DNA of 64,000 bases from Humidesulfovibrio sp. GTDB lineage: Bacteria > Desulfobacterota > Desulfovibrionia > Desulfovibrionales > Desulfovibrionaceae. Where the stretch lies: assembly GCF_031082295.1 (NCBI RefSeq), contig NZ_JAVHLD010000004.1, forward strand, positions 79,492 through 143,491, in the 5' to 3' direction. Under the pieces are notes generated by a model that saw only the letters and a program-made list of their open reading frames with translations, did not search any database and was not told the origin of the DNA. Positions 41,054 through 43,127 of the stretch are shown piece after piece; positions within the stretch are counted from its first letter, which is position 1; each line of letters starts with the position of its first letter. The position numbers and the translations under genes are program-made.

Positions 41054-41329
41054 ATGAACAAGAGCGAGCTCATAAAGGCGCTGGCCGAAGAGAAGAAACT
41101 GCACATCGACGATGCCACCAAGATTGTTGGAGCATTCTTCGACTCCATCAAGGACGCGCTTGTCGCAGGCGACAGGGTTGAAGTGCGTGGTTTCGGCAGC
41201 TTCAAGGTCAAAGACTACAATGGGTACACCGGCCGCAATCCCAAGACTGGAACAGTTGTTCAGGTCCAGCCCAAACGCCTGCCCTTCTTCCGTCCAGGCA
41301 AAGAGCTCAAGGAATTCATCAACGACTAG
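41054..41329 (+). CDS. HU/IHF family DNA-binding protein
   Basis: This 91-residue protein has the family fold with 'VEVRGFGSFKVKDYNGYTGRNPKTGTVVQVQPKRLPFFRPGKELKE'. The 'PKRLPFFRPGKEL' ending resembles IHF subunits more than the HU protein at 29.4 kb, whose arm reads '[12 protein letters not shown]'. GGAG lies upstream of the ATG. The next gene starts one base after its stop, so the putative selenoprotein is cotranscribed with it. Confidence 0.93.
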   Translation: MNKSELIKALAEEKKLHIDDATKIVGAFFDSIKDALVAGDRVEVRGFGSFKVKDYNGYTGRNPKTGTVVQVQPKRLPFFRPGKELKEFIND

Positions 41330-41330
41330 T

Positions 41331-42215
41331 ATGTTGCGCATCCTCACGCTTCTGCTTTTTGCAGTACTGGCCTTTGCGACGGATGTACACGCTGGTGCGG
41401 CAAAGCTCACCTTGCTCTTCAGCGGTAACACGGAAGCAGAAGCTCGTCCCTGCCCGTCCTGAGGCGGGAAGACCGTAGGCGGACTGGCCCGGCGGGCCAC
41501 GTTGCAGAATGCGCTTCGACAGAGCGCGCCCAAAGAGGCACCGGTGCTTGTTCTCGCCGGTGCCTATGAATTCGCCCAGTTCCAGGCGCAAAAGCCCCCA
41601 ACGCGCAAGCGGCTTGAGTTCATGGTCAAGGCCTTCGATCTCCTGCGCAATGACCTGGTCTATGTCACGCCCTATGAACGCGGGATACTCACCCAGGCAG
41701 GTGTTCAGCCAAGCAAACTCTGGCGTGGCTCCAATCGCCTTGAACAGCACATGCTTGGCAAGGACTCGGCGCACAGAGTCGGCGTGCTTCTTCTCCCACC
41801 CCTTCCCGATGGCGCGAAAACCCTCCCACTGGCACTTGTCCAGCAGATTGAGGGCGCGGTACGCACGCTCAGGGCCAAGGCACGCCTCATCGTGGCCATG
41901 AGCCCTTGGGGCTACTCGCTGGAGCAGGAACTGCTCAAGTCGGATGGCCCCTTGCCCGACGTGCTGCTCGGTTCCGGTGTCGGCATAGGCCTTGTTGGCA
42001 ACATCTCGCCAAAGGGAAAAACTCTCTGGATACGCGCCTTCACCCAGGGCAAGTCCATGAGTCGCATCGACATTCTTGCCTGGCCCGACCACGCCGACGC
42101 CAATTTCAAATGGACGGAAGAGCAAAATGTTCGTATGACCCTACTCGGGTTGACTGATCATTACATGGAAGATTCGCATATGCTCTCGCTCATGCAGAAC
42201 ATGGGCACGGACTAG
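41331..42215 (+). CDS. Putative UshA-like selenoprotein (in-frame UGA as Sec44)
   Basis: Reading through the UGA at 41460-41462 gives a 294-residue exported protein: signal peptide (about 1-21), then 'LTLLFSGNTEAEARPCPS', Sec44, then 'GGKTVGGLARR' and an intact downstream frame. The UGA falls in a C-P-S-U (CxxU) redox-type motif. The fold resembles the start of UshA/5'-nucleotidase-like proteins ('...C.CGG..GGLARRA'), but the metal-binding Asp/His are not seen, so nucleotidase activity is unlikely. A hairpin follows the UGA. A nonsense mutation is the alternative; the intact rest argues against decay. Confidence 0.8.
41483..41502 (+). promoter_or_regulatory. Candidate bacterial SECIS element
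   Basis: A 6-bp perfect stem (41485-41490 with 41494-41499), extendable by two pairs with one bulge, closes on the loop GGC (41491-41493). The loop begins 29 bases after the last base of the UGA and starts with G. This fits the known bacterial SECIS rules of a short distance (about 16-37 bases) and a G in the first loop positions. It lies inside the coding frame, as expected in bacteria. Confidence 0.65.
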
Positions 42216-42248: not shown

Positions 42249-43127
42249 ATGCAGTTGCGCGGCGCGTTTACCGCACTGGTGACGCCGTTCAAGAACGGCG
42301 CCGTGGACGAGGAGGCCTACAGGGCTTTCATCGAATGGCAGATCGAACAGGGAATCAACGGCGTTGTGCCCTGCGGCACCACCGGCGAGGCCGCTACCCT
42401 CTCTCATGCGGAACAGGGGCAGGTCATCCGTATCTGTGTCGATCAGGTAAAGGGGCGCGTCCCGGTCATAGCCGGAGCTGGCTCCAACAACACCCTGGAA
42501 GCCATCGAGTTGACCAGCATGGCCAAAAAGGCCGGGGCTGACGCAGCACTCATCATCACCCCCTACTACAACAAACCCACGCCTGACGGCTTGGTGGCGC
42601 ACTTCAAGGCCATCGCCGCCGAGGCCTCCATGCCGTTCATACTGTACAACGTGCCTGGCCGCACTGGACAGAACGTCCTGCCCAAGACCATAGCGCGCAT
42701 CGTCAAAGAAGTGCCAGAGGTCATCGGCTGCAAAGAAGCCACGGGTGACATCAAGCAGGGGTCGGAGCTGTGCGAGATCATGGGCAAGGAGTTCGTGGTC
42801 CTGTCCGGTGACGACTTCACCGTGCTGCCCTTGCTCTCCGTAGGCGGATGCGGAACCATCTCGGTCACCTCCAACGTCATGCCCGCCAAGATGTCCGGCA
42901 TGATTGACGCCTACTTCAAGCGCGACATCGTTCGCGCCCAGGCGCTGCATATGGAGATGAACCCGGTGAACAGGGCCATGTTCCTTGAGACGAACCCCAT
43001 CCCGGTCAAGACGGCACTGTCGCTCATGGGCAAGATGGGCGTCGAGTTCCGGTTGCCTCTTGTTCCCATTGAGCCAGCCAACCTGGCCAAGCTCACCGAA
43101 GTCCTCAAGACCAGCGGGCTTCTGTAA
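42249..43127 (+). CDS. dapA: 4-hydroxy-tetrahydrodipicolinate synthase
   Basis: The 292-residue TIM-barrel aldolase condenses pyruvate and aspartate semialdehyde in lysine and diaminopimelate synthesis. The Schiff-base Lys is K162 in 'GCKEATGD', and the catalytic Tyr is Y133 in 'ILYNVPGRTG'. 'GTTGEAATL' binds pyruvate's carboxylate. GAGGAAGG precedes the ATG, 33 bases after the selenoprotein gene. dapB, which uses its product, is at 63 kb. Confidence 0.96.
   Translation: MQLRGAFTALVTPFKNGAVDEEAYRAFIEWQIEQGINGVVPCGTTGEAATLSHAEQGQVIRICVDQVKGRVPVIAGAGSNNTLEAIELTSMAKKAGADAALIITPYYNKPTPDGLVAHFKAIAAEASMPFILYNVPGRTGQNVLPKTIARIVKEVPEVIGCKEATGDIKQGSELCEIMGKEFVVLSGDDFTVLPLLSVGGCGTISVTSNVMPAKMSGMIDAYFKRDIVRAQALHMEMNPVNRAMFLETNPIPVKTALSLMGKMGVEFRLPLVPIEPANLAKLTEVLKTSGLL

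Follow-up and report, generated by a model that had tools for sequence, protein, structure and literature searches.

A family 2 UshA-like selenoprotein gene of Humidesulfovibrio sp. with replaced metal-site motifs and a proposed periplasmic redox role

Locus and reading frame

The window, the whole stretch of DNA analysed, is 64,000 nucleotides long and belongs to Humidesulfovibrio sp. It carries a gene of a UshA-like (seleno)protein between genes of an HU-type DNA-binding protein and DapA. The following features are recognised.

41331..42215, + strand: UshA-like (seleno)protein family 2 gene, 294 residues including Sec44, stop codon TAG at 42213-42215.
41331..41396, + strand: probable Sec-type signal peptide, residues 1-22, cleavage near VHA-G; translation read by eye.
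41451..41453, + strand: TGC codon of Cys41, proposed resolving thiol, conserved in at least 90% of 51 rows.
41460..41462, + strand: UGA codon, predicted selenocysteine 44; column invariantly Sec or Cys in 51 rows.
41478..41495, + strand: GGLARR motif, common to 5'-nucleotidases; from the family alignment and profile alignments.
41485..41499, + strand: putative bSECIS hairpin, stem TGGCCC/GGGCCA, loop GGC at 41491-41493; from folding and comparison.
41054..41329, + strand: HU-type DNA-binding protein (PF00216), upstream neighbour, context only.
42249..43127, + strand: DapA (PF00701), downstream neighbour, context only.

The frame 41331-42215 opens with ATG at 41331, closes with TAG at 42213-42215 and is interrupted by the TGA at 41460-41462 alone, as the sequence-only reading had described. 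One base separates the stop codon of the HU gene from this ATG. With the TGA translated as selenocysteine the product has 294 residues, and the frame is intact for the 250 codons 3' of the UGA. The motif C41-P-S-U44 reported from the sequence is present in the translation. Cys41 and Sec44 are the sole Cys or Sec residues of the 294-residue protein. Standard ORF calling splits the gene, as had been foreseen, into ORFs of 116 aa, up to the UGA, and 237 aa, starting with TTG 41502. No tRNA genes (ARAGORN) and no matches to Rfam families were found in the 64-kb window. The gene very probably encodes a real selenium-containing exported protein.

Family membership

A named family of UshA-like (seleno)proteins, as mentioned in the sequence-only reading, does exist. 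It is NCBIfam NF049981, "UshA-like (seleno)protein family 2", matched by the window protein at 297.2 bits (cut-off 140) over model positions 1-262 of 262 and by 51 of 51 aligned members. The full-length match and the CxxU motif are in common, and nothing essential is different. The gene is thus an ordinary member of a known family, apparently uncharacterised. Family 2 appears in the selenoprotein table of a 2026 review, GenBank-annotated and with CxxU (PMC13188914); UshA-like selenoproteins are also covered in PMC2398784, PMC9312934 and PMC7435645, and PMC2398784 distinguishes them from families whose redox motifs are Cys-based. The survey passages on UshA-like selenoproteins in these four sources contain no tested function. 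Among the papers listed by full-text literature searches there was no functional study of UshA-like (seleno)proteins.

Family 1 is NF041198, UshA-like (seleno)protein, with PCGU and CxU, described as COG0737-like in passages of PMC2398784 and PMC9312934. The window protein reaches 41 bits against its cut-off of 275 bits. The N-terminal part is homologous (E 9.4e-11, best stretch residues 6-91) and Sec lies in the same loop. It differs from the three scanned proteins over the NF041198 cut-off, L155, L159 and L169, in the position of the Cys, which is at -3 from Sec instead of -2, and from L159 and L169 in the absence of a C-terminal domain with four CxxCH motifs.

Family 2 members were taken from 119 phmmer hits; removal of 5 short fragments and of identical proteins left 109 members. 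Their loci were recognised by GG-x-x-R/K-R preceded by a Cys or Sec codon, and relatives without that motif lie outside the list. None of the located hits was without both Cys and Sec. A set of 117 rows consists of the 109 members and 8 from later loci; L134, a Cys gene with the hairpin kept, was read separately. A set of 141 rows consists of these 117 and 24 loci among the best matches listed.

Selenocysteine and its exchange with cysteine

The proposed selenoprotein is accompanied in the host genome by selA, selB, tRNA-Sec (selC) and selD. The tRNA-Sec match scores 80.9 bits, the next best 45.6. SelB is present, with the SelA gene one gene away. SelD is matched at 327 bits and itself contains one in-frame TGA, as does a second family 2 gene of the same genome.

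Alignment of homologs supports Sec at position 44. The column is invariantly Sec or Cys in 51 rows; among the 117 members read it is Sec in 98 and Cys in 19, with at least 6 changes between the two on the 117-row tree. Other invariant positions in the 51 rows are P40, G50, G51, R54, R55, P156, G216 and G240. The UGA recurs at the matching codon of other genomes, eight public MAG records among them, which makes an isolated sequencing error very unlikely. Of the three conditions that the sequence-only reading gave for its refutation, absence of selB/selC and homologs with neither Cys nor Sec were examined directly and a wrong base indirectly, and none spoke against it.

Of 297 genomes sampled from the order, 166 contain a family 2 match, which exceeds the cut-off in 161, and SelB is present in 255. 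Seven genomes with family 2 genes are regarded as machinery-less, being outside the SelB matches and having no tRNA-Sec match above 48 bits (strong matches: 77-86). All seven (G208, G209, G229, G232, G255, G248, G070) have Cys. In three of them a match clears the tRNA-Sec gathering score (47) by under 1 bit; matches near this score also occur as extras in genomes with a strong tRNA-Sec. Genomes of other combinations are G064, G067, G104 and G251 (Sec genes and strong tRNA-Sec, outside the SelB matches), G295 (82% complete; Sec gene and SelB, strong tRNA-Sec not found), G215, G082 and G267 (Cys genes despite SelB and tRNA-Sec) and G247 (Cys gene, SelB match marginal).

At L054, L055, L056 and L057, all in genus g6, a Cys copy and a Sec copy are paired in tandem.

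SECIS hairpin

The hairpin TGGCCC-GGC-GGGCCA has 6 bp and occupies the L-A-R-R-A codons. Its loop starts 28 nt 3' of the UGA. The folding energy of the isolated hairpin is -10.2 kcal/mol, and the hairpin belongs to the minimum-energy structure of a 53-nt stretch. The bSECIS rules given in a passage of PMC13188914 are a spacing of 16-37 nt, G in loop positions 1-2 and an energy of at most -7.5 kcal/mol. The agreement with the distance and loop rules claimed from the sequence therefore holds (28 nt, GGC loop, -10.2 kcal/mol).

Folding energy of the single sequence was rejected as proof of a SECIS element: the window hairpin is within chance against shuffles (z = -0.94), and the six pairs are also formed by 2930 of 20000 synonymous recodings of the peptide. 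About 4.7% of 2000 synonymous recodings are at least as stable as the window hairpin. A free-energy scan with free hairpin placement, also rejected, left Sec and Cys genes unseparated (mean -16.7 for 68 Sec genes vs -17.4 for 12 Cys genes); its motif filter also left members out.

The significance of the hairpin comes instead from the comparison between Sec and Cys genes. Only fixed-position pairing and codon choice, of the approaches tried, separate the two. In the 109-member set the inner five pairs are formed in 90 of 96 Sec genes and in 0 of 13 Cys genes; six Sec genes are without at least one inner pair. In the 117-row set 92 of 98 Sec genes and 1 of 19 Cys genes retain the hairpin, or 2 of 20 Cys genes with L134 added; the Cys genes still with the hairpin are L129 and L134. 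In four Sec genes with fewer than five of the six pairs, other hairpins fold instead. The second Arg codon ends in GG in 92/96 Sec genes and 4/13 Cys genes; elsewhere in these Sec genes, 463 of 1418 Arg codons have this ending. The GG motif lies 6 codons from the UGA in 96/96 Sec genes; the corresponding distance is the same in 8/13 Cys genes. A tree-controlled test of the hairpin has 5 supported pairs, with the same direction in 4.7 on average (median p 0.0625), and falls short of significance because independent events are too few. Reading of UGA 41460 as selenocysteine, with the in-frame hairpin 41485-41499 as the predicted bSECIS, is well supported by this comparison.

Fold and metal site

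The window protein alone has zero matches in Pfam or PDB. A profile of 51 members matches 5'-nucleotidases (E 0.0013 to 0.0095) and SoxB (E 0.064) in PDB, and the NCBIfam SoxB model is matched by 2 of the 51 at E < 0.001. An AF2 model built on 8 sequences has middling quality (pLDDT 60.8, pTM 0.62); residues 35-49, the site of Cys41 and Sec44, are modelled poorly. The model superposes on SoxB with Z 11.7 (192 residues, rmsd 3.9) and on E. coli UshA with Z 10.8 (203 residues, rmsd 4.1); the top structural match, Z 11.8, is an integrative model of YunD. Foldseek alone ranks purple acid phosphatase and Mre11 first (E about 1e-4, TM about 0.35).

Profile alignment places N-D-T-H of a 5'-nucleotidase against A-n-t-y in family 2, S-H-N-G of SoxB against S-p-W-G, and G-H-T-H against a G-s-G-e-G stretch. 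The residues of the ND.H, SHNG and GH.H/GHTH motifs are those that we take to be metal ligands. Since the aligned motifs are replaced, the catalytic metal site is very probably gone from family 2. With E limited to 1, none of the 51 members matches Pfam Metallophos. The C-terminal nucleotidase domain is absent: the 294-residue protein aligns from residue 22 and with the first domain only. The earlier description of a UshA-like protein without its metal ligands is thus supported, the fold by profile and AF2 model and the lost ligands by the aligned motifs.

In comparison with the thiosulfohydrolase SoxB and the 5'-nucleotidases UshA and CD73, the fold (Z 10-12) and the GGLARR segment are in common. 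The family 2 protein differs in the replaced metal motifs, the missing C-terminal domain and the added CxxU. By alignment for the motifs, and by profile and a middling model for the fold, the protein is a stand-alone UshA/SoxB-type metallophosphoesterase domain with replaced metal-site motifs.

A distant relative, L163:753-1964, is a Sec CxxU protein that retains the metal motif SNDTHG. It lies under both NCBIfam cut-offs (232 of 275 bits and 123 of 140 bits) and is perhaps an intermediate.

Partner thiol

Cys is found at -3 in all family 2 members read except three. Among the matches listed, five of 141 rows have no Cys at -2 or -3: L083 and L079 (sisters) and L121 in family 2, and two below the cut-off, L165 and L167. 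All of these (5/5) have a Cys among their last 8 residues, as do 2/136 of the other matches listed, in which Sec has a neighbouring Cys; both exceptions bear CxxCH motifs. In four of the five cases the C-terminal tail is Ser/Gly-Cys-Gly-Gln/His. The contrast, noticed on inspection and therefore post hoc, gives a Fisher value of 5e-8 with kinship ignored over the 141 rows among the matches listed. It weakens with wider tails yet stays (15/136 for the last 50 residues, among the matches listed). On the tree the pattern requires at least 4 changes, with only 3 supported independent pairs; with so few independent events a sign test is unable to reach 0.05, and the tree draws no distinction between loss and gain of the thiol.

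The presence of a C-terminal Cys in 5/5 relatives from which the Cys beside Sec is missing suggests that Sec works with a resolving thiol. The C-terminal Cys may be read, post hoc, as this thiol relocated. New here is the apparent coupling, likewise post hoc, between absence of the neighbouring Cys and presence of the C-terminal one.

Genomic context

An HU homolog lies near the gene on the same strand at 95/109 loci, directly upstream at 78/109. Also near the gene are a MinD-like gene (91/109 loci) and a DapA homolog (82/109). The HU and DapA context is uninformative on a redox role.

The second family 2 gene of the host genome, at L051:3620-4546 (G000:C37:3644-4438), adjoins genes of CcmF, a TPR protein and a P-type ATPase. 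At 5/5 loci of its clade the family 2 gene is preceded by CcmF and TPR genes and followed by a P-type ATPase gene, the Pfam assignments being those of L051. The family 1 proteins L159 and L169 carry four CxxCH motifs after the domain and match Cytochrome_C554. In L160 and L161 the Cys positions agree with those of L159, and both proteins probably share the fusion to a four-CxxCH haem domain. The Cys copies L138-L141 are situated among pilin-like and type II/IV secretion genes, as assigned by Pfam in L138 and L140. The common trait of these contexts is exported products bearing cysteine or haem, which fits a periplasmic thiol role.

At G234:C2:107100-107877 a second copy is split in two overlapping pieces, decayed or frameshifted.

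Proposed function and alternatives

The gene is proposed to encode an exported NF049981 selenoprotein, with Sec44 inserted by SelA/SelB/SelC/SelD and a bSECIS, consisting of a metal-free UshA/SoxB-type domain and acting as a periplasmic selenol/thiol redox protein with a Sec44-Cys41 couple. The probability of this reading as a whole is put at roughly 0.6. The UGA at 41460 would be decoded by the host machinery with the hairpin 41485-41499. Sec44 would be the attacking residue, and Cys41 would resolve it through a selenenylsulfide. The electron partner would probably be another thiol, or else a c-type cytochrome system, the latter by analogy with the haem-fused family 1 proteins and the CcmF-linked paralog. 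The redox role, which the sequence-only reading had preferred to a nucleotidase, is better supported now than it was there, and we infer it from the comparisons above.

In an alternative with perhaps one chance in five, the Cys/Sec pair binds a ligand (haem, sulfane sulfur or a soft metal ion), which would make the protein a carrier or chaperone of the periplasm and not a redox enzyme. The CcmF, TPR and P-type ATPase genes beside one clade (5/5 loci) and the haem-domain fusions of some sister-family proteins agree with such a carrier, and a C-terminal Cys could still act as a ligand. Exchange of Sec for Cys and a pair of one Sec and one Cys are, however, as expected of redox pairs, and the commonest context, HU and DapA, has no recognised metal or haem gene.

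Improbable, more so than the carrier, is a metal-dependent hydrolase (a nucleotidase or a SoxB-like thiosulfohydrolase) with Sec as metal ligand or nucleophile. The UshA/SoxB-like fold, the GGLARR motif and the Sec beside an intact SNDTHG in L163 speak for it, but the metal-site motifs, as aligned, have been replaced in family 2, Pfam Metallophos is unmatched by the 51 members even at E up to 1, and the C-terminal 5'-nucleotidase domain is absent from the 294-residue protein.

A pseudogene or sequencing error, with the UGA a real stop or a wrong base, and general readthrough or reassignment of UGA to another amino acid are rejected as hardly credible: the former has in its favour the split frame of a plain ORF list and a hairpin that by itself is within chance, the latter the open frame and nothing more. 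Against the former stand the UGA shared by 98 of the 117 members read, with Cys in the others, and hairpin codons conserved together with Sec; against the latter stands Cys as the only alternative residue in the 51-row alignment; and against both stand tRNA-Sec, SelA, SelB and SelD in the genome.

Beyond the selenol/thiol redox protein preferred here, a wider evolutionary scenario is offered tentatively. The C-terminal Cys arm of SoxY enters the active site of SoxB. In a similar manner, a dead metallophosphoesterase/SoxB scaffold may have been rebuilt as a selenol redox protein with a fixed Sec and a mobile resolving thiol. From its place beside Sec, kept in most members read, the thiol would have shifted on about four occasions to a flexible tail at the C terminus, and this tail may swing into the former active site. 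In view of the haem fusions of the sister family and the CcmF-linked copy, the protein would serve periplasmic sulfur or cytochrome thiol chemistry. As a whole this scenario is less likely than not.

Significance

The sequence history suggests thiol chemistry on a phosphatase-like scaffold with a lost metal site. The mechanism proposed here, a redox couple of Sec and Cys on a UshA/SoxB scaffold free of metal, gains new comparative support. UshA-like selenoproteins are known from selenoproteome surveys; the coupled Cys pattern, the haem-fused sisters and the CcmF-linked copy make the Sec-Cys couple directly testable.
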